From Myxococcales bacterium (GTDB lineage: Bacteria > Myxococcota > UBA727 > GCA-2721815), in the NCBI GenBank assembly GCA_002721815.1, contig PBLQ01000026.1:1-34317 (forward strand): a DNA stretch of 34,317 bases. The letters run 5' to 3'. The notes beneath the pieces were generated by a model. That model searched no databases. It saw only the letters and a program-made list of their open reading frames with translations, and was not told the DNA's origin. Made by a program: the position numbers and the translations under genes. Below are positions 13,124 through 34,317 of this stretch, piece by piece; positions within the stretch are counted from its first letter, which is position 1, and every line of letters starts with the position of its first letter.

Positions 13124-13939
13124 TTAAATCGCGACCTGTCCTTCACTCTGAACCTCATCCACATCATCGTTTACAGAGCCCATGGTGGCACCTTCTGCCT
13201 TCGAGTAACGATAGTTCAACAAAGTGGTCAGCTCGTTCCAGTTTGTCGACAAGTGTATTTCTTCAGCCAATTCTGGTGGAACTTCTTTAGCAGGCGGAAG
13301 GGAAATCGTACTGTTGCGTCGACCGGAATCCCCAGTTAAAACGATATTGGCAAACGTATCCATAAAATCGGGGTTGTACCGTAACTCTAATTCTGCACAA
13401 ATCATTTGCATGACCTGTTGTGGATATAAGCAGAATTCTTCGTAATAGTAGAGACTACAACCATTATAACAGTTGAGAAACTGAATGTATCTTTTGCAAT
13501 ACTCGTCGAAAGAATCTTGGATGCATTTGGTCCAGCCTTGTTTTTTCGCACTTAAAAAAGATTCCACAGGATGACGCACGGTCACCAGCGACTTCACTTG
13601 ATGCTTTTCTGCCGAGTAGTCTTTGACAGGGGTTCCCACATAGTCTCTGAAAAAGAAGTCTACGTGTGTATGGTCTCTCAGCACTAAATCCAAATCGTTT
13701 CGTTTACACAGGTCTGCCATCACCTCAAGCTGCACTTGAAACATCAACTTGCAATGATCGACAGAAAGAAGATTGGTATGTGCATGAAACTGCTGAACCA
13801 TGGCGGTTGGATCGTATTTAACCCCTGTAAAAACATCTGGGTGTACTTCACTCAATAAAACCACGTTTTGTTGCGCAGCAATACATTTACTCATTAAGGT
13901 ACCGCCCGTGGCAGCAAAATGATGGATGGTTCTAATCAT
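13124..13939 (-). CDS. PAPS-dependent sulfotransferase family protein
   Basis: The 271-aa protein shows the two PAPS-binding elements of cytosolic/Golgi-type sulfotransferases. A 5'-phosphosulfate loop lies at residues 6-18 (HHFAATGGTLMSK). A 3'-phosphate-binding segment lies at about 120-131 (TVRHPVESFLSA), with Arg122 and Ser130 at the usual spacing of eight. LVLRDHTHVDFF (86-97) is typical of bacterial members. The C-terminal 30 residues are acidic and variable. It is transcribed away from cysD and cysNC, which make its cofactor PAPS. The acceptor may be a glycan, lipid or protein and cannot be told from sequence. Start ATG 13939 has only a weak ribosome-binding site. Confidence 0.85.
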   Translation of the reverse strand: MIRTIHHFAATGGTLMSKCIAAQQNVVLLSEVHPDVFTGVKYDPTAMVQQFHAHTNLLSVDHCKLMFQVQLEVMADLCKRNDLDLVLRDHTHVDFFFRDYVGTPVKDYSAEKHQVKSLVTVRHPVESFLSAKKQGWTKCIQDSFDEYCKRYIQFLNCYNGCSLYYYEEFCLYPQQVMQMICAELELRYNPDFMDTFANIVLTGDSGRRNSTISLPPAKEVPPELAEEIHLSTNWNELTTLLNYRYSKAEGATMGSVNDDVDEVQSEGQVAI

Positions 13940-14050
13940 CTTTGGGTTCCGTTCTTTCTGAGAGAGCTCCGATTATCAGGAGGGATTGCTCTTTATTGCC
14001 ATCGAAAGACAGAATCCGAAACTTTAGACCTAACAGAAGAAGTCGGGTAC

Positions 14051-14076
14051 GAAGAGCCTAAGGCTCTGTTTTTTAT
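14051..14076 (+). terminator. Terminator-like hairpin in the cysD leader
   Basis: AGAGCC (14053-14058), loop TAA, GGCTCT (14062-14067), then GTTTTTT. It lies about 80 nt before cysD, in a region where the preceding plus-strand gene already has its own terminator. It may therefore attenuate cysD transcription, or end a short leader transcript. No known sulfur or SAM riboswitch was recognised upstream. Confidence 0.5.
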
Positions 14077-14156
14077 AGATAATACTGGTTTTCCCTTCCT
14101 GTAATAAAAAACCAAGATCGGGCTCAAGCTAACCCGGCTGATGGCCGATTAGTGGC

Positions 14157-15101
14157 ATGAACCCCCATTTCACGGCGCAAACTATGATACCAGCAACCGA
14201 AACCTACGAAATGAACCATTTGGACCAACTCGAAGCCGAGGCCATCTACATTTTTAGAGAAGTGATGGCGCAAGCCCGCAAACCCGTAATGCTTTATTCG
14301 GTGGGCAAAGACTCTTCCGTTTTAGTTCATTTAGCCCGTAAAGCTTTTGCACCGGCCAAGCTCCCCTTTCCTTTATTACATATAGATACGGGATTTAAAT
14401 TCCCCGAAATGTACGAATTCCGCGATAAGTTCGTCAAAGAAATAGGGGCCGAACTCATTGTTCATCAGGGAGAAGAAGGTTTTAAAGTCAAAGCCAACCC
14501 TTGGGATTTAGGCACTGTGGCGTGTTGTGGCCTTCTTAAAACTGGTGCGTTGCTCGAAAGTCTTAAGCAAGGTGGATACGATGCAGCCTTTGGCGGTGCT
14601 CGGCGCGATGAAGAAAAATCCCGAGCTAAAGAACGGGTATTTTCATTCCGAGACACCAACGGGCAATGGGACCCACAGGCACAGCGACCTGAACTTTGGG
14701 ATTTGTACAATGGCCACGTTCGTAAAGACGAAAGTATAAGAGTCTTTCCATTATCGAATTGGACCGAAATGGACATCTGGAATTATATTGATAGAGAATC
14801 AATCCCCATCGTTCCGATGTACTACGCGGAACAGCGCGACATGGTGGTTCGCGGGGACCAGCTCATTCCTTTTTATCCTGGAACACGGTTGCTTCCCAAT
14901 GAAGTCCCGGAAAAGGTGATGTCACGCTTCAGAACGCTGGGCTGCTCTCCTTGCACGGGTGCCGTACATTCAAACGCCACTACCGTTAAAGAAATCATTC
15001 AAGAAGTGAGTACCGCGCGACAATCGGAGCGTATCACACGGATTATCGATCACGACCAAGAAGGGTCCATGGAGCAGAAAAAACGTGAAGGCTACTTTTA
15101 A
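14157..15101 (+). CDS. cysD: Sulfate adenylyltransferase subunit 2 (CysD)
   Basis: CysD is the catalytic subunit of ATP sulfurylase, which makes adenosine 5'-phosphosulfate (APS) from sulfate and ATP. The 314-aa sequence matches CysD throughout. It has the PP-loop SVGKDSS at residues 48-54 and [22 protein letters not shown], and it ends with the RxGYF-type tail (REGYF). Escherichia coli CysD has 302 residues. ATG 14157 gives a slightly long N-terminus. ATG 14184 or 14211 would match the family length better, and none has a strong ribosome-binding site. It overlaps cysNC by 17 nt (GTG start), which indicates translational coupling in one operon. Confidence 0.96.
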
Positions 15102-17034
15102 AGATATCGAACACCCCATGGCCCATGAAGACGCAACGCCCACTGTTCGTCCCAATGAGCAACACGACCTTTTGCGGATTTCCACTGCCGGCAGTGTGGA
15201 TGATGGCAAATCAACCTTAATTGGACGTTTGCTCCATGAATGCAAAAGTATTTACGACGATCATTACAAGAGTATGATCAACGACTCCAAAAAGTGGAAC
15301 CGTGATGGCATGGACTATGCGTTGCTCTTAGACGGACTAAAAGCCGAGCGAGAACAAGGCATCACCATCGATGTGGCCTACCGGTTCTTCTCCACGCCTA
15401 ATCGTCATTTTATTGTGGCTGATACGCCCGGTCACGAACAATACACTCGGAATATGGCAACGGGCGCCTCTACCGCTGACTTGGCCATCATCCTCGTTGA
15501 CGCCAGTAAGGGGCTGTTGCCTCAATCGCGTTTGCACGCATCTATTGCTTCATTGCTGGGTATTAAACGTGCCGTGGTGGCCGTAAACAAAATGGACTTG
15601 GTGGGTTATAAGCAAAAGTATTTTAGAGATATTGAACAAAGCTTTCGGTCCTTTGCAGAAAAGCTAAATTTCACGGATGTTCGCTTTATTCCCATGAGCG
15701 CTTTAAAAGGGGATAACGTGGTCAAAAAAAGCAAGGCCATGCCATGGTACGAAGGGACCGCGCTCTTACCCTACTTAGAATCCCTTTATATCGGCAGTGA
15801 TCGGAACCTCATCGACCTCAGGTTTCCAGTCCAGTATGTGAACAGACCCACTGCTGATTTTCGCGGGTATTGTGGAACCGTTGAGTCAGGCGTCATTCGT
15901 CGTGGCGATGCTATCATGGTTTTGCCCAGCGGAAAGGAAACAAAAGTTAAATCACTGGTCACCATGGATGGTGAACTCGATTACGCTTACCCGCATCAAG
16001 CAATTACAGTATGCCTAGAGGACGAAATTGATATTTCCAGAGGGAATATTCTTGTACATCCCGGCAATGTACCCAAGATTGATCGCCAAGTTGAAGCCAA
16101 TGTGGTTTGGATGAGCGAAGAGCCATTAGATATAACGAAGAAATACCTGCTCCGCCAAAACACCAATGAAGTCAGAGCAGTGGTTTCAAATGTGAAATAT
16201 CAAATCGACACCAACACGCTACATCGAAAAGAATCCGACACCCTCCAACTAAATCAGGTGGGGCAACTGTCTATCGAGTGTTTTAAACCTTTGGCCTATG
16301 ATGCGTACGAGCAAAACCGCAAGACAGGCGCATTTATTTTGATCGACCCTGTCACTTACAACACCGTGGCTGCAGGTATGCTTTTAGATAAACAAAATGC
16401 GACCTCGCTCTTTAGTGATGATGGCACTCAAGAACCCGTTGCCAACAACATCTACCGTTACAACGGAGCGGTCACTTCTTCCGATCGGCAAGGCGCTCTG
16501 GGGCAAAAAGCCTCTTGCCTGTGGCTCACCGGGCTTTCCGGCGCAGGTAAATCTACAGTGGCCTACGCCCTTGAAGAAGAACTGCTCCGTCAACACGTGC
16601 ATCCGTACGTCTTGGACGGAGATAACGTCCGCCACGGCCTAAATCGTGACTTGGGTTTTTCGCCTGAAGAACGTCGGGAAAACATTCGTCGTGTGGCTGA
16701 AACAGCCCGCCTAATGATGGATGCTGGCCTGGTTGTTATTTGTTCGTTTATTTCTCCCTTCAAAGAAGATCGAGAAATGGCCCGAAAGATTATTGGCGAT
16801 CGTTTCTTTGAGGTTCACGTAGACGCTTCCTTGGAAACCTGTGAATCCCGGGATCCGAAAGGTCTTTATCAGAAAGCCCGCAACGGAGAAATTGCCAACT
16901 TCACGGGTGTCAGCGCTCCCTACGAAGCCCCTTCCAATCCGGACCTCGTTTTGAACAACGATCGTGATGCGACTTTGGATGGAGCAGTCAGTCGCCTGAT
17001 GGACTTTTTGAAACAACATAAAATCCAGGTTTAA
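15085..17034 (+). CDS. cysNC: Bifunctional sulfate adenylyltransferase subunit 1 / APS kinase (CysNC)
   Basis: This fusion couples the GTPase that drives APS synthesis to the kinase that makes PAPS. The CysN part (about 28-440) has the G1 loop GSVDDGKST (36-44), G3 DTPGHEQY and G4 NKMD. The CysC part (about 475-649) has the P-loop GLSGAGKST (483-491), [11 protein letters not shown], and the FISPF and KGLYQKAR segments of APS kinase. Start GTG 15085 has GGAG 10 nt upstream inside cysD. ATG 15118 is an alternative without such a site. The fused kinase and adjacent sulfotransferase point to PAPS production for sulfation. No APS/PAPS reductase or sulfite reductase gene is in the window. Confidence 0.96.
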
Positions 17035-27418: not shown

Positions 27419-28267
27419 TCATGGGGTCTCCATCACATCCAGATCTTCGTACACCACTGATCGGTGCATTTCTCGACGAGTACCCCCATAATCGTTCACC
27501 GCACAATGTTGCGTGGTTTTATTGTCCCACATGACAACATCACCAGCTCGCCATTGGTGTCGATAGACCGTTTCTGGTTTGATGATGTGCATTGACAATT
27601 CATCGATCAGCGCATCGCTCTCCGCATCTGAAAAACCGATAATCTGCCGGGTAAACGCTGGGTTCACGTACAGATATTTCTTTTTTGAATGAGGGTGACA
27701 GCCCACCACGGGGTGTGAAACTGCGGTTCCAACCCCAGGGCTTTTGTGAGCAGCACCGGGGGAATACTTCGCGGGATCGGTGATGCCGTGCGCCCGATGA
27801 ATGCCCATCAAATCAGCAATTTTGCTTTGGGTGTCCTCAGACAAACGCTCATAAGCCAAAACACAATCAGCAAAAAGTGTATCCCCGCCGGCTTTCGGGA
27901 GGTCTATGGCTTGTAAAATCGTTGCCATGGGTGGGTGAGGTTGAAAACTCCCGTCTGCATGCCAAGACCCTCCAAAATTATATTCATCTTCTTCACGTTT
28001 AATCACCTGTTGCAAAAAGTTGGTAGATGCCACGCATTGACGACCTGGCGGTTTTCGCAAAGGACCAAACTGCATCGAAAATTGTTCATGGGCCAAAGGG
28101 GTCAAGGTTTGGTCGCGAAACACCAACATGCGGTGTTCGAAAAGCAGTTCTTTAATATAAGTGACCGCGACCTCCTCATTCACCGATTTGAGGTCTGCAC
28201 CCAGGACACAAGTCCCCAATGCGCCATCACCCTTGATGATTTCCCAATCATCCCAACGCATCATCAT
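27419..28267 (-). CDS. TauD/TfdA family Fe(II)/2-oxoglutarate dioxygenase
   Basis: The 282-aa protein has the facial triad of the family: His103 and Asp105 in GGSWHADGSF, and distal His254 in TTQHCAVNDYGG. Arg265 or Arg269 in RREMHRSVVYE is placed to bind the 2-oxoglutarate C5-carboxylate. Length and motifs match full-size TauD/TfdA enzymes, which hydroxylate substrates such as taurine or aryloxyacetates. The substrate here is unknown. Its start overlaps the end of the FAD oxidase gene by 20 nt. Three in-frame ATGs (28267, 28264, 28261) leave the exact start open. It is clearly different from the much smaller 2-oxoglutarate oxygenase at 31780. Confidence 0.92.
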   Translation of the reverse strand: MMMRWDDWEIIKGDGALGTCVLGADLKSVNEEVAVTYIKELLFEHRMLVFRDQTLTPLAHEQFSMQFGPLRKPPGRQCVASTNFLQQVIKREEDEYNFGGSWHADGSFQPHPPMATILQAIDLPKAGGDTLFADCVLAYERLSEDTQSKIADLMGIHRAHGITDPAKYSPGAAHKSPGVGTAVSHPVVGCHPHSKKKYLYVNPAFTRQIIGFSDAESDALIDELSMHIIKPETVYRHQWRAGDVVMWDNKTTQHCAVNDYGGTRREMHRSVVYEDLDVMETP

Positions 28268-29591
28268 CTCGTTTTTTGTTCAGTTGTCCCTCAGCAATAA
28301 TGCCCTTGGGGTCCCATTGTTTCTTTAGCTCCTCCAACGACTGGCTGGCCCGAGGATAAAAAGCATTGAGATGAGATTCATTAAAGTCGTGCCAGCATCC
28401 GAGATACGGTTTCCCACCTAAGGACACACAATGCAGCAAAGAAGCATCCAAAACTTTTTTCACAGCACGCCAAGCCGCCTCATTTTTCAATGGGACCGCC
28501 CAGTTAATTCCGAGTCCAAACAGCATGGACGGGCTTGCCTTTTGTCGGGGCGAGAAAGGGAAAAAGGGAGCGTTGTCTTGCTTGCGAATGGCGTAAAAGG
28601 GAATGCGCGTCACACAGGCCGACGCCTCTTTATCCCCTTTCAGCAAAGACAAGAGTAAGTGGGCATGCTCACAGAATTCATCGTAGGGGAAACAATAAGC
28701 CGAATATAAGACCCCTTTTTTTTGTCGAACCTCATTGGTGTTAAATGCAATCTCATAGTGATGTTTCAAACGGTGGTTTTTTTCCACGTATGTATGTGCA
28801 GGCACCCCTTGTTGTAACCAAGGAGCGCAGACCGGATCTGAACTTTCGGCAACATCTTCACCGTACATGGCAACATGTGGCTCTTCGAGGCCAATGGAAC
28901 CAACGAACTGTAAAGTTGCATCTCCGCGCCAAGATGAAATCCAGGACAGGCTTTTGAGAAACGCATTGAGGTCATCAAAAGTGTAGTGGGCAAAATGGGT
29001 ATAAGGTTTGTAAGGAACCAGTCCCATGGTCGCTTCTTCGATCACGCCCAGCTGGCCTTGACCACAGAGCACGTGACGAAAAAGTGTTTCATGACTGTCC
29101 GGTGAAACCAGCAATCGTTCACCTTTGGGGGTCATTAAAGTGAAACTCCGAACATGCTCCACCGTTTGCCCCTGGGTAATGGAATGAAACCCCAACCCAC
29201 CTGCGGACAAAACCCCGCCCAAACTCAAATTCAGGTAAACAGGAACCACCGGCAACGAAAGCCCATGTTCATTTAATGCCAATTCAAGTCTGCACAGGTT
29301 AGAGGAAGCGGCTGCCGTTGCCTGCGTCCCATCAAATCCTGACAGTCGCGCATCGCGCTGATAGCGCTCAATGAGCGTTCCGCCTTTGGACAGTGACTGC
29401 CCGGCACAGCCACGGCCAGCCCCACGTAAAGTGACCGAAAGTTGATCGTTCACGGCCTCTTCAATCAGTTGCTTTAGATCCGTATCTCTCCGAAATTGGA
29501 CCACCTTTTTGGGTTCACGGTGAACCATACCGCCATAATCGTGGCTGTAGACATCTTTTTCCCGGTCACTGAGTTGTTCAAACAAGGGCAT
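28248..29591 (-). CDS. FAD-binding PCMH-type oxidase/dehydrogenase
   Basis: This 447-aa flavoprotein has an N-terminal FAD_binding_4-type domain: LRGAGRGCAGQSLSKGG at residues 55-71 and a VYLNLSLGGVLSAGGLGF segment. GQGQLGVIEEATMGLVP follows. The C-terminus (QWDPKGIIAEGQ) is a typical end for this superfamily. The GGVLSAGG...GQ-GQLGVI pattern is closest to the cytokinin-dehydrogenase/sugar-oxidase branch. The position that is often a covalent-FAD His (RGxGHS) is Arg60 here, so FAD may be non-covalent. The substrate is unknown. It is the first gene of the three-gene minus-strand operon and is divergent from the RiPP precursor gene. Confidence 0.87.
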   Translation of the reverse strand: MPLFEQLSDREKDVYSHDYGGMVHREPKKVVQFRRDTDLKQLIEEAVNDQLSVTLRGAGRGCAGQSLSKGGTLIERYQRDARLSGFDGTQATAAASSNLCRLELALNEHGLSLPVVPVYLNLSLGGVLSAGGLGFHSITQGQTVEHVRSFTLMTPKGERLLVSPDSHETLFRHVLCGQGQLGVIEEATMGLVPYKPYTHFAHYTFDDLNAFLKSLSWISSWRGDATLQFVGSIGLEEPHVAMYGEDVAESSDPVCAPWLQQGVPAHTYVEKNHRLKHHYEIAFNTNEVRQKKGVLYSAYCFPYDEFCEHAHLLLSLLKGDKEASACVTRIPFYAIRKQDNAPFFPFSPRQKASPSMLFGLGINWAVPLKNEAAWRAVKKVLDASLLHCVSLGGKPYLGCWHDFNESHLNAFYPRASQSLEELKKQWDPKGIIAEGQLNKKRDDDALG

Positions 29592-29820: not shown

Positions 29821-30171
29821 ATGTCAGAACGCAAAATTACCAAATTATACGAAAGCTTACGCGAGCTAGGCCAAGTTTCCCCCGATCAAGTCCCTCAAGA
29901 GGCAATTGAGACCATCGCGTCATCATTTGAGGTCTCCGGCGAGATTCAGTCCAACGCAGTGGCCTTGTTGGCCCGAATTGCCAACGAAACCACAGAGGCA
30001 GAGTTCGTCGACGCTCTCGAATCAGGCGATCTTCCCGCCATTGCCCTGTCCGAAGCCGAAATGGAAACCTTCAACGGAGGCCGAAAACGCGCTAGGCGCG
30101 ATAAAGGTGGTGCCAAAGGTGAAGAAACAAAAAAGAAAAAGAAAATCGACTGGTGCGGGCGCTGCTGGTAA
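29821..30171 (+). CDS. Putative RiPP precursor peptide with double-glycine leader and WCGRCW C-terminus
   Basis: AAGGAG 6 nt before ATG 29821 is a near-ideal ribosome-binding site. The 116-aa product has a helical, acidic leader (1-87) ending LSEAEMETFNGG. This matches the L-S-x-x-E-[LM]-E-x-x-x-G-G cleavage motif of leaders cut by C39/PCAT peptidases. The predicted 29-residue core (88-116) is extremely basic (about a dozen Arg/Lys, including KKKKK at 104-108). It ends IDWCGRCW, so its only two cysteines are Cys112 and Cys115. The leader shows no clear nitrile-hydratase or Nif11 domain by eye. It is followed by a hairpin terminator and then by an MNIO enzyme gene, a class that modifies Cys, Asp or Asn in precursor peptides. 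The function is inferred from motif and context. Confidence 0.85.
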   Translation: MSERKITKLYESLRELGQVSPDQVPQEAIETIASSFEVSGEIQSNAVALLARIANETTEAEFVDALESGDLPAIALSEAEMETFNGGRKRARRDKGGAKGEETKKKKKIDWCGRCW

Positions 30172-30269: not shown

Positions 30270-31094
30270 ATGACTTTAATCAGCATGACTTATTTGCCGC
30301 CTCTTCATGGCCTTATCGAAGATTTGAAGGCGGACGATCTGTTACAAGCCATTGAGTTGGTCCCCGATGAATTCTTTAGTGAAACATCTCCGCAGGGTTT
30401 AAGCGAGGCTTTGGGCGATACCTTGAGCCACTTCATGCTACCTTACTCATTCCATTTTGTGGGCAACTCACTGTGCAGTGCAGACTTCCTTACCAACCAC
30501 GACCCTGGCTTAAATGAATGGGATGCATACAAACCGATGTTGGTCTCAGACCACCTCACCTGCTCTCGCATTGGCGATATCGACGTCACCGGTAATCTGC
30601 CCACGCTTTATACCGAAGAAACCTTGGACATCACCGCTGAAAACATTCGGCATCACCAACAACGCCTGCCTCGCAACACTTCTTTCCTCCTAGAGCACAT
30701 TCCCATCCCTTTCGAATTGAAGCAAAGTACTTTGTCATGGGACGAATTTTATTTGGGATTGATCAAGCAAACCGATGCTGGTGTTCTTTTAGACTTGCAC
30801 AACCTGTATTGCGAAGAACAAAACAGTAACTTCAATGCAATTCAATTCATGGACCAGTTACCTCAAGACCAGGTTTTAGAGTTACACGTGGCCGGGGGGT
30901 ATCTCCGAAAGGAATGGAATTACTATGTTGACTGTCATTGCCAGCATGTCCCTGAACGGGTTTTTGAGCTTGTCGAGGCTGCCATGAGTCGGTTTTCTCC
31001 CAAACTGGTCAACTTGGAGCGAGAACACAATTTCGTCGAATTTGATCGCATACGAAAAGACATTGAAAGGTTGAATCGGCTGTGTCGCAACTAA
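30270..31094 (+). CDS. DUF692 / MNIO family peptide-modifying oxidative enzyme
   Basis: MNIO enzymes are TIM-barrel, multinuclear iron oxidases that modify RiPP precursors (MbnB in methanobactin, TglH in 3-thiaglutamate, bufferin maturases). The 274-aa sequence follows the family in order: FHFVGNSL (His62), VSDHLTCS (Asp94, His95), LLEHIPIPF (Glu142), LLDLHNLY (Asp175, His177, Asn178), LELHVAGG (His206), VDCHCQHVPERVFEL (Asp221, His223) and NLERE (Glu250). The N-terminus is short and lacks the usual G-x-G-L-R start, having IELVPDEFF where many members have an E-x-x-x-E-N/D-F/Y pattern. The gene overlaps the next by 13 nt. Start ATG 30270 has no strong ribosome-binding site; ATG 30285 is an alternative. 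Confidence 0.92.
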   Translation: MTLISMTYLPPLHGLIEDLKADDLLQAIELVPDEFFSETSPQGLSEALGDTLSHFMLPYSFHFVGNSLCSADFLTNHDPGLNEWDAYKPMLVSDHLTCSRIGDIDVTGNLPTLYTEETLDITAENIRHHQQRLPRNTSFLLEHIPIPFELKQSTLSWDEFYLGLIKQTDAGVLLDLHNLYCEEQNSNFNAIQFMDQLPQDQVLELHVAGGYLRKEWNYYVDCHCQHVPERVFELVEAAMSRFSPKLVNLEREHNFVEFDRIRKDIERLNRLCRN

Positions 31095-31753
31095 GGGATA
31101 AAATTGCAAAACGTCAAAAAGAAATCCTGCTTGGCTTGGTGCGTGGCGACGCAAAAAATAATGAATGGCTCGATCAAAACTTTAAATGGGCATACGAAGG
31201 CTTTATTCTAAACCGTATCGTCCCGGACAACATCGAACGCATCAAAGCAATACTGGCAGACTGTTTTCCCAATCATGCAGCCCACGCGCCCTTAGACCAA
31301 AACAGTATCGCCCTGTTCTGTAGCGCTATTAAAACCACCGGTTCGGAAGTGGAGTGCCTCGATCATTATTTTTCCGCCGTCCAAAATGCCATGCAAACGC
31401 AACCTGCAGACAGCGCTGCACGTGATGCATTATTTTTGGATTGGGCCCATGCGAGGGTGAAAGCCCAAGAGGCCATTACCCCAAAAGCTCTTTCTGATTT
31501 TATTCAAAATTTACCCCCAGACGCGATGAACGACGAGGCCTACATCGTGCACCCAGGCTTGGTGATCATTCAATGTCTCACCAATTTGATTCATTTCCTG
31601 GATGCACCTTTTTTCACCGTTGATATCGCCGTTGAGAACCCTGGCAACAAACCCTATGCCCTCATTTATAAGACCTCGGCACATACAGACAACAAGTGCA
31701 TTCGCTTCTCAAGCATTGCAGGACTCAAATTTCAAAATACTTTTGCCGATTAA
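31082..31753 (+). CDS. Unrecognised protein in the position of an MNIO partner
   Basis: The 223-aa product starts at GTG 31082, inside the end of the MNIO gene, which implies translational coupling. No family was recognised. The N-terminal half is helical (RDKIAKRQKEILLGLVRGD, then a LxxNFKWAYEGFILNRI segment). The C-terminal half is more beta-like and ends YALIYKTSAHTDNKCIRFSS. MNIO enzymes commonly act with a small partner encoded next door (MbnC, TglI, HvfC/BufC types) that binds the leader. Position, size and the helical start fit that role, but no direct motif match supports it. It could equally be a novel tailoring protein. Confidence 0.8.
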   Translation: MSQLRDKIAKRQKEILLGLVRGDAKNNEWLDQNFKWAYEGFILNRIVPDNIERIKAILADCFPNHAAHAPLDQNSIALFCSAIKTTGSEVECLDHYFSAVQNAMQTQPADSAARDALFLDWAHARVKAQEAITPKALSDFIQNLPPDAMNDEAYIVHPGLVIIQCLTNLIHFLDAPFFTVDIAVENPGNKPYALIYKTSAHTDNKCIRFSSIAGLKFQNTFAD

Positions 31754-31779: not shown

Positions 31780-32397
31780 GTGAGCAGCGATCATATCGAA
31801 GACATCAAACATGACCTCAAGGACAATGGCTGGTTTTTTGGTAAGTCATTATACACCCTCGAAGGATTTGAAGCACTGGGTCAGCGGTTGGGTGAAATCA
31901 TTGCGCGAACCGATATCAGTATTGATGAAACCCGCTCCGTGTACCAAGTACGCACCGCTGGAGGGCTCACCTTGCACATGGACGACCCACCGGCACGCTA
32001 TATTGCTTGGCTGGGGATGGTCACGCCCGAACAAGAAGAACCCACCAAATTTCTAGATACCCGTCCCATCTTGGAAATGCTTTCACCCGAAGAGCTGACG
32101 CGTATCAAATCCATCCAAGTAAAAGACGACAATGGTTTGATTCACCCCATGCTGGCGGATGATGGTGTTTTTCATTACGTGCCTTGGATGATCCAAATGC
32201 AAACGGTCACCGATAACGACACCTTTGAAGCGCTGGCGCACCTTCAAAGTCTCATTCGCAAAGCCACCCGGACCTGTCACACCATTAACATTCAAAAAGG
32301 CGAAATCCTTATCGTGGATAATACCCGAGTCATTCACGGTCGGGATCGCATTGCCGCGGATTCCCAACGACACCTCAAACGACTGTGGATCAAATGA
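31780..32397 (+). CDS. Compact TauD-like Fe(II)/2-oxoglutarate oxygenase
   Basis: The frame is open from 31696, but GTG 31780 lies 5 nt after GGAG and clears the previous gene, so it is the likely start. The 205-aa protein has the metal-binding HxD pair His66-Asp68 in GGLTLHMDDPP and distal His186 in DNTRVIHGRDRI. Arg197 and Arg201 in RHLKRLWI are placed to bind 2-oxoglutarate. The VIHGR...RHLKRLW ending is typical of the TauD/GBBH-like branch. It is shorter than usual (about 280-330 aa) and seems to keep only the core. Between MNIO-cluster genes it probably hydroxylates or desaturates the precursor peptide. Its stop overlaps the next start (ATGA). Confidence 0.87.
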   Translation: MSSDHIEDIKHDLKDNGWFFGKSLYTLEGFEALGQRLGEIIARTDISIDETRSVYQVRTAGGLTLHMDDPPARYIAWLGMVTPEQEEPTKFLDTRPILEMLSPEELTRIKSIQVKDDNGLIHPMLADDGVFHYVPWMIQMQTVTDNDTFEALAHLQSLIRKATRTCHTINIQKGEILIVDNTRVIHGRDRIAADSQRHLKRLWIK

Positions 32398-33692
32398 GCA
32401 ACCATCACGCACCAGTCCAGCATGAGCTCAAAACCGCTGACACACTGATGCAACTCTTACAGAAAGATCCATCCGGTGCCTATGACGCTATCTGGTCATG
32501 GATTTTTTGCGCGCCACCAGTGGCATCTTCACTCAGCGAAAAGCAACTGCGAGCACTGTCTGAATTACAACGTTCATGGTCTGCAGCTGCGATGCGCGAC
32601 ACAGGCCAAAGCAGCGATGGTTTCTTAGTGGAGCACTTGTACGGACCCACCCCAAAAACCTCACCGACCACTGTACCGCCCCCTTTTTCGATGACCACAT
32701 TTCCTGAAGTGTGCGAAGTCCAAATGTCACTTTTGAAAGCCAATATTTCTGCCATCCAACATCAATCGGAGTTTCAGCAGCGTCTTCAACAAACACCGGA
32801 CCTCTTTAGGTTGTCCTCTTGGGGGCTTGAAATACGACTTCACGAAAGCGAAGAAACCGATTGGGCATTCAATCTCGGCCCCTTGTTTAGAGATCACATG
32901 CCTCTTTGTACGGCATTCACAGCAGAAGACAGGCTGGAGCAACAAAAATGGCAGGCCAAATACGCACCACTCGACAGCCCAGACAGCATCATGCTGCCCT
33001 GCTGGATTGAAATCGATGCAAAGGATATCTCTTACCAAGGCCCTCAAGAAAATCTCTTTTTTAAAATTCATCCCAAGGCCACACCTGATGATATCAAAAA
33101 TTCGCTCAACACGCTTTATCCACAACATCACTGGGAAAAAGCATGGCCACCCATCGAAACGTTTGCGAATCACCTACCAGTCGCCGCTGACTTTTTCCAA
33201 CTGGGGGTGATGCAGCGACGCGATCACATCCTCAAAGCAGTGGCTTTTAATTTCGCCATAGAACATATGCTGGGCTTCCTAGATGCACTCCAGTGGCAAG
33301 GCAACAAATCACTATTGGTGGATGTTATTGACACCCTGAAAAAATATCCCGAGTTGAAAATTGCGCTCAGTTTGGATTTTGACTTTTCCGTTCGAGATTC
33401 CGTAGGGCTCGAAATTCATTATTTCCCTAGCGAAAGTCGTAACCTTTTTCACGAACCACGCCAATTTCAACAGTTGGTGCAAGATCAATTTTCATCCCTG
33501 ATGCGGTTCTTGGCAGAGCCGCTTTTCAAAGATGTCATCACCGCCGAAAAAAGATTGGCGCTGGAACAGTACCCTAAAATTTTGGTGGGCCGGCCCTTTT
33601 ATACGTACGCTTGTACCCTTAACCACGTGAAATTGAGTGTTGGGGAGCAATTAAAGGCAAAGGCTTACCTGTATCAAGAACTTCGCCTTTAG
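32394..33692 (+). CDS. Cluster-associated protein of unknown function, homologous to the convergent gene at the right edge
   Basis: Start ATG 32394 overlaps the preceding stop as ATGA. The 432-aa protein has no recognised catalytic motif. The middle region contains LPCWIEIDAKDIS and LFFKIHP. The C-terminal half has FFQLGVMQRRDHILKA, then LSLDFDFSVRDSVGLEIHYF, and it ends LNHVKLSV-x6-KAYLYQ. The same landmarks recur in the partial protein on the opposite strand (IGVSCAAGVEAFKAY, NLVLDVQ...LGIEL, LNHLKVS...KAYWVY), so the two are homologues. From memory, proteins with a similar GVM...LD...GLE...HxKL...KAYL layout occur near peptide-biosynthesis genes, but I cannot name a family. It may be a structural or substrate-handling factor. 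Confidence 0.8.
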   Translation: MSNHHAPVQHELKTADTLMQLLQKDPSGAYDAIWSWIFCAPPVASSLSEKQLRALSELQRSWSAAAMRDTGQSSDGFLVEHLYGPTPKTSPTTVPPPFSMTTFPEVCEVQMSLLKANISAIQHQSEFQQRLQQTPDLFRLSSWGLEIRLHESEETDWAFNLGPLFRDHMPLCTAFTAEDRLEQQKWQAKYAPLDSPDSIMLPCWIEIDAKDISYQGPQENLFFKIHPKATPDDIKNSLNTLYPQHHWEKAWPPIETFANHLPVAADFFQLGVMQRRDHILKAVAFNFAIEHMLGFLDALQWQGNKSLLVDVIDTLKKYPELKIALSLDFDFSVRDSVGLEIHYFPSESRNLFHEPRQFQQLVQDQFSSLMRFLAEPLFKDVITAEKRLALEQYPKILVGRPFYTYACTLNHVKLSVGEQLKAKAYLYQELRL

Positions 33693-33702
33693 TTACAAAA
33701 CG

Positions 33703-34317
33703 CTATAAATAAACCCAATATGCTTTCCACTGGATATCGCCGCCGGGCCGAAACGACACCTTAAGGTGGTTGAGCGCGATGGCCAAGTCGGAAGGGATAT
33801 TCCGCCGCTGTGGTTCAATGTATTTCTGAAGCTCAATTATGGCGTCTTCATGGAGGGATTCCTTCACGATGGTACTGTTGAAAATCGCCTCTATTTCTTT
33901 GGATGACCTTCTTTTTTTCTGGTGACGTAATTTCAACTCAATCCCCAGTCTTTGCAGCTGGTGCCCTTGGACATCTAAAACCAAATTCGTTTGGTGGGCA
34001 GACAAACTTTCCGCTAATTCAGAGACCGCATTAAGGTGCTCACCCATGAATTGCTCACGAACACCCGTTGGTAATTCATGAAACAGCGTTGACAAGTTCC
34101 CCATGGGATAAGCCTTAAAGGCTTCCACACCCGCCGCGCATGAAACACCAATATGTTCTAAATGATGGGTCCCGCAAAGTGCTGTTAAACAATCAAAGTC
34201 TTCGTTCGAAAAAATAAAATTATGAGGAGAGAGTTCAGAATATGCGCGAGCCAAAAATTCGAAACCGTCTTGAACTTTTGGTGATTGGCGAAATGTAGCG
34301 ACCAAGCCAGTTACAGC
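33703..34317 (-). CDS. Partial homologue of the 32394-33692 protein, N-terminus beyond window
   Basis: The frame is open from the window edge to a stop at 33703, giving the last 204 or so codons. The TTG at 34305 is probably internal and not the true start. The sequence aligns in order with the C-terminal half of the convergent neighbour: HIGVSCAAGVEAFKAY, LVLDVQGHQLQRLGIEL, ELQKYIEPQ, ALNHLKVSF and KAYWVYL. Identity looks low, so this is an old duplication. Its 3' end lies 10 nt from the neighbour's 3' end. An orientation opposite to the biosynthetic operon suggests a second transcription unit to the right, perhaps another part of the cluster. Confidence 0.8.
   Translation of the reverse strand, partial: AVTGLVATFRQSPKVQDGFEFLARAYSELSPHNFIFSNEDFDCLTALCGTHHLEHIGVSCAAGVEAFKAYPMGNLSTLFHELPTGVREQFMGEHLNAVSELAESLSAHQTNLVLDVQGHQLQRLGIELKLRHQKKRRSSKEIEAIFNSTIVKESLHEDAIIELQKYIEPQRRNIPSDLAIALNHLKVSFRPGGDIQWKAYWVYL

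Follow-up and report, generated by a model that had tools for sequence, protein, structure and literature searches.

Two divergent members of a predicted ABBA-type family as probable tryptophan prenyltransferases in an MNIO peptide cluster of a Myxococcales bacterium

The main finding of this work was the assignment of a probable function to two neighbouring proteins encoded at the end of contig PBLQ01000026.1 of a Myxococcales bacterium, which was analysed in its entirety as a window of 34,317 nucleotides. Both are likely to be aromatic prenyltransferases of the ABBA (PT-barrel) type that belong to a RiPP cluster and prenylate tryptophan in its precursor peptide. This reading builds on observed features, namely the homology of the two proteins, the predicted fold of their family, its RiPP context and the tryptophan-rich cores beside it, while the substrate, the prenyl donor, the sequence of the reactions and the way in which the copies share the work are what we infer. 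Since these two distantly related members of a predicted tryptophan prenyltransferase family adjoin a small peptide ending in Trp, the cluster probably makes a lipid-decorated peptide.

The gene for protein 1 lies on the forward strand and runs to 33692 from an ATG at 32394 (432 aa) or a GTG at 32385 (435 aa). Protein 2 is encoded on the reverse strand at 33703-34317 (stop codon 33703-33705), where the contig stops at 34317, so that its N-terminal half is missing and 204 C-terminal residues are visible; no match to the missing piece was found in the rest of the assembly. The two genes are convergent with 10 bp between their stops, in agreement with the tail-to-tail arrangement described in an earlier note on this DNA. 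Upstream, the ATG of protein 1 overlaps, as ATGA, the stop of a short TauD/2OG-Fe(II) oxygenase-like gene at 31780-32397 (forward; PF02668, E 1.9e-13), an overlap that couples the two genes. It is preceded on the same strand by a gene for a 223-aa protein (31082-31753), with no significant match in Pfam or NCBIfam, which from its position after the MNIO gene is a candidate partner of that enzyme and may be a new one, and by the MNIO (DUF692) gene itself at 30270-31094 (PF05114, E 5.7e-42), whose matches to the BufB, HvfB and ApyH models of NCBIfam all fell under the cut-off. The putative RiPP precursor, 116 aa long, is encoded at 29821-30171 (forward) and consists of a leader ending LSEAEMETFNGG and a basic core with two Trp residues and the end IDWCGRCW; its C-terminal stretch reads ...FNGG RKRARRDKGGAKGEETKKKKKIDWCGRCW. 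It thus places a Cys-containing core (WCGRCW) beside the PF05114 enzyme and a GG-type leader with a Trp core beside a prenyltransferase-like gene. Directed away from the precursor, on the reverse strand, are an FAD-linked oxidase (FAD_binding_4; 28248-29591; PF01565, 3.9e-16) and, overlapping it, a TauD-family 2OG dioxygenase (27419-28267; PF02668, 3.8e-55). No class II lanthionine synthetase (LanM) was found among the window genes scanned, on a contig that ends at 34317.

The homology of the two proteins, which the earlier note had proposed from shared landmarks, is visible to a family profile and not in pairwise comparison. BLASTP of one protein against the other returned nothing significant, and pairwise alignment gave about 19% identity with a shuffle z of 2.1-2.7, too weak to decide the matter. 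In contrast, a profile built from 48 relatives, with both window proteins left out, scored protein 1 at 70.7 bits and protein 2 at 26.9 bits, far over the best shuffled scores of 8.0 (1,870 scored shuffles of protein 1) and 4.7 (2,131 of protein 2). An earlier profile of four relatives, again without either window protein, had given 46.6 and 19.2 bits, and in a profile search of its own genome protein 2 scored 28.1 bits (E 2.8e-6). The landmarks are real as well: LSLDFD...GLEI in protein 1 corresponds to LVLDVQ...GIEL in protein 2, and LNHVKLS...KAYLY to LNHLKVS...KAYWV. As judged from the sequences, this homology is genuine but old. In the family tree, protein 1 groups with the second copy of the two-copy clusters of the Myxococcaceae type (support 0.82-0.88), and protein 2 is unplaced (support 0.37). 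Rather than stemming from a recent duplication, the two copies thus belong to different parts of the family tree.

The description of the family as uncharacterised also holds, as neither Pfam nor NCBIfam offers a clear model for it. Protein 1 had no match in either collection, the curated model for cyanobactin F-type prenyltransferases included, protein 2 had only sub-threshold chance matches, and a sequence search of the family against PDB chains gave no match, whether to a solved prenyltransferase or to any other chain. Relatives were collected from weak matches of protein 1 elsewhere in the phylum, which were made into a small alignment and used for a wider genome search. Members were found with the small alignment in 32 of 195 genomes of the phylum, a four-sequence alignment of closer relatives matched eight loci in a contig scan, and the relatives include contigs of Myxococcus, Archangium and Hyalangium. 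Beyond the Myxococcota, they occur in Cyanobacteria, Bacteroidota and one Azospirillum replicon. Locus L007 and the matches in G045, G067, G461, G563, G595 and G810 (E near 1e-3 to 1e-2) are probably due to chance and were left out; loci L043, L045, L053 and L060 were set aside from the reading of neighbourhoods. The N-terminal part of a Myxococcus fusion protein of about 680 aa looked terpene-cyclase-like by eye, a reading that we do not claim because no match was found.

Structure prediction points to the chemistry of the family. An AF2 model of an Anabaena relative, with protein 1 in the alignment, reached a pLDDT of 87.6 and a pTM of 0.88 and is composed of repeated helix-strand-strand-helix units. 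Its top Foldseek matches in the PDB were AmbP1 and the 5-DMATS of S. coelicolor (both 3.0e-6), PriB, IptA and AnaPT, and all matches with E < 0.001 were ABBA prenyltransferases, for the most part indole-acting. With VIA, the same model matched aromatic prenyltransferases at Z 16.8 to 14 over 252-297 residues, where chance best matches typically give Z 7-8. The model of protein 1 itself had a mean pLDDT of 66.7, with the N-terminal 95 residues or so poorly predicted and a C-terminal core mostly at 78-96; the C-terminal 340 residues or so form an ABBA domain, which (model residues ~94-432) reached Z 15.5 to the indole prenyltransferases MpnD and CymD and superposed on MpnD with an rmsd of 4.2 over 285 residues. 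The ABBA or PT-barrel fold is defined by alpha-beta-beta-alpha repeats that close a ten-stranded antiparallel barrel, and this repeat architecture is present in both predicted models. Protein 1 (numbered from the GTG at 32385) keeps the nearly invariant residues E149, D159, E209, D211, R279, D331, E343, K416, K426 and Y428, with conserved Glu, Arg/Lys, Lys, Lys and Tyr on predicted barrel strands. Protein 2 keeps D115, E127, H184, K186, K198 and Y200, and of the nearly invariant residues on its retained strands it lacks a single one: at the position of R279 it has A62 in place of the family Arg. The family is therefore predicted to consist of ABBA/PT-barrel prenyltransferases closest to the indole prenyltransferases.

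The neighbourhoods of the relatives are RiPP pathways across three phyla, so that the suggestion that the family works in the pathway is well founded; the survey turned up class II LanM, radical-SAM, YcaO/TfuA-like, lasso-type and MNIO contexts. Many of these clusters encode a class II lanthionine synthetase, and in L042, L046 and L055-L058 a member lies beside LanM, an ABC transporter and an FAD oxidase; homologues of the FAD oxidase of the window occur at eight of the relatives' loci (best 3.1e-45). Clusters with two family members are seen again in L038-L040, L105 and L115. Those of L038-L040 adjoin an MstE-like terpene cyclase (1.4e-56) and WelO5-like, PhyH and JmjC oxygenases, and those of the cyanobacterial L105 adjoin LanM, a squalene-cyclase-type protein and PhyH-like proteins. 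L038-L040 (Myxococcota) and L105 have in common a cluster with two of the predicted prenyltransferases, with similar cores, CTWGANCGK and CTWGVSCQSSSN, and with a squalene-cyclase-type protein and PhyH-like oxygenases in both, to which the myxobacterial version adds a WelO5-like halogenase. At L063 and L064, radical SAM and a Trp halogenase (PF04820, 1.6e-143) accompany the family in Anabaena, where a TfuA-like gene was recognized by eye, as were YcaO-like genes in Nodularia. An asparagine synthase homologue, a lasso-type feature, lies beside the member in L106; a further lasso-type observation is that in L110 the member lies beside a short precursor-like ORF that is rich in Trp and ends in ...LWGWKWKHGGGGHGVS. 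The family gene of L099 carries a fused 2OG-Fe(II) oxygenase domain, and that of L100 equals it in length and C-terminus. No homologue of the MNIO of the window was found in the relatives' regions examined, and an MNIO scan of the phylum gave, among the matches listed, none close to a family member except that of the window. A subgroup of the family (L047, L049, L050 and L052) adjoins a protein of about 160-210 aa, with a LigA-like start in L050, has no obvious precursor nearby and, in L047, L050 and L052, has a large protein-kinase-like protein in the vicinity; a different role for this subgroup is possible.

Tryptophan is the feature that these clusters have in common at the level of the peptide. 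It recurs in otherwise unrelated cores, such as CTWGANCGK, ASCDWCSC, SCCWESC, ...CSQW, ...PKPKW and ...NPNW, and the precursor of the window is similar to those near relatives in which a ELSDEALEAVAGG-type leader precedes a Trp core. Distinct small ORFs on the same strand and within 5 kb of a family gene had a terminal Trp in 20 of 60 cases as compared to 3 of 51 others (Fisher p 2.7e-4), a value that is optimistic because related tandem precursors (L099, L100) were counted separately. In the latter two loci, which are cyanobacterial, Nif11/GG-leader precursors stand in arrays, and their cores, though hypervariable, without exception have KW at the end. Halogenation of Trp in some clusters could explain part of this bias, and the candidate precursors near L096 and L101 have no Trp.

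Previous studies with comparable enzymes are in line with this reading. In Moorena producens, MppC geranylates Trp82 of a lanthipeptide at indole C5 in a leader-dependent manner (PMC12715784), and the mpp cluster encodes LanM, a terpene synthase and the core ACWRWSG (PMC12715784, PMC11791876). MppC resembles the family in being a soluble alpha-beta-beta-alpha prenyltransferase that acts on a short Trp core behind a long, GG-terminated leader, and the mpp terpene synthase recalls the squalene-cyclase-type (MstE-like) cyclase of L038-L040 and L105. However, mpp uses LanM, whereas in the window an MNIO and 2OG oxygenases were seen and LanM was not. The leader contact reported for MppC, W336/F340 (PMC12715784), is not evident in protein 1, which ends right after KAYLYQELRL, and no consistent place for such a W...F motif was found in the family. 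NctPC is described as a bifunctional Trp geranylgeranyltransferase-cyclase of ABBA fold, in which an MstE-like domain cyclises the chain (PMC13290415, citing Hubrich et al. 2024); it resembles the family in its fold, its low similarity to cyanobactin enzymes, its Trp acceptor, its RiPP cluster and its MstE-like partner, which relatives likewise have, but its cyclase is fused and the window has none in view. Compared through published descriptions, the family appears to be the same as that of these lanthipeptide enzymes. The small-molecule indole prenyltransferases AmbP1, PriB, IptA, CymD, MpnD and FgaPT2 have the predicted fold and indole chemistry in common with it, but their substrates are free Trp, indoles or small peptides, and they show about 6-15% structural identity without a sequence match. 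The cyanobactin enzymes PatF, PagF and KgpF also prenylate RiPPs by means of a PT-barrel, as proposed here, although PatF matches the family fold weakly (Foldseek E 2.8e-3) and the F-type enzymes act leader-free, after cleavage (PMC12715784). PalQ prenylates the C-terminal Trp of a RiPP, but ComQ/PalQ belong to the isoprenoid-synthase lineage, whose fold is unrelated to that predicted for the family (PMC10853753).

We hypothesize that the beta-barrel binds a prenyl diphosphate (DMAPP, GPP or longer) through inner Lys, Arg and Tyr residues, those of KL...KAYL on the last two strands together with the conserved Arg/Lys of the middle strands, and that the Glu of the first strand positions the indole. 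The prenyl group would be transferred to Trp in the basic core of the precursor. This core would also be modified, probably at its Cys residues, by the MNIO with its putative partner and by the 2OG and FAD oxidases. The copies may split the labour, for example with one Trp each. Going further, the cluster might define a new class of prenylated MNIO peptides, in which MNIO chemistry at Cys is combined with ABBA prenylation of the flanking Trp residues of ...WCGRCW by two anciently diverged enzymes, one per Trp, a proposal that we regard as tentative and somewhat short of an even chance.

A role for both copies has to be weighed against the idea that protein 1 alone is catalytic and that protein 2 is a degenerate paralogue, which would bind the leader or lend stability to protein 1 but have no transferase activity of its own. 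The great divergence of protein 2 (26.9 bits), the absence of the conserved Arg and the visibility of only its C-terminal half would fit, but the Lys, His, Tyr, Asp and Glu of its last strands are still in place, and two different members per cluster are also found in L038-L040 and L105, so that we consider this rather unlikely, if still the most serious competitor to catalysis by both. Prenylation of another residue or of the backbone (Tyr, Ser/Thr, Arg or Cys), in the manner of the cyanobactin prenyltransferases, is less probable again. Foldseek did match the fold to cyanobactin PatF and to the arginine bis-prenyltransferase DciF, and L096 and L101 have cores without Trp; nevertheless the cores next to family genes, unrelated in other respects, repeatedly contain Trp, indole prenyltransferases make up most of the best fold matches, and MppC (PMC12715784) and NctPC (PMC13290415) act on Trp.

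The earlier note had proposed duplicated substrate handling, and a non-catalytic family for recognition or carriage of the substrate would be in keeping with the lack of a domain annotation and the consistent position next to precursors. This proposal was not sustained and now seems very improbable: the models predict a PT-barrel in which Glu, Arg, Lys and Tyr are conserved, and the L099 gene is fused to a 2OG oxygenase. Since the family is predicted to fold like aromatic prenyltransferases, it is likely to be catalytic, with tryptophan as the acceptor.

With prenylation of Trp by both proteins as the preferred reading, two aspects of the cluster are new. Trp prenyltransferases are paired with an MNIO and 2OG oxygenases and not with a lanthionine synthetase, a combination unreported in the literature searched; a survey of MNIO clusters makes no mention of prenylation (PMC12452194), and no paper linking the two was found in a search confined to literature outside subscription. 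The other is the pair of very divergent prenyltransferases in one cluster, an arrangement of two different copies that recurs elsewhere. The analysis offers a probable chemistry for a family that has no Pfam or NCBIfam model and is spread over three phyla in many RiPP clusters with no other relationship to each other. The family can serve as a search hook for lipidated peptides, including those of lasso-type, radical-SAM and MNIO clusters, in which one would not otherwise expect prenylation. It also raises the testable question of whether MNIO processing of WCxxCW comes before or after prenylation of Trp, or is required for it. Elsewhere in the window, at 13124-17034, a sulfotransferase-like ORF adjoins cysD-like and cysNC-like genes (sulfate activation), as judged by eye.
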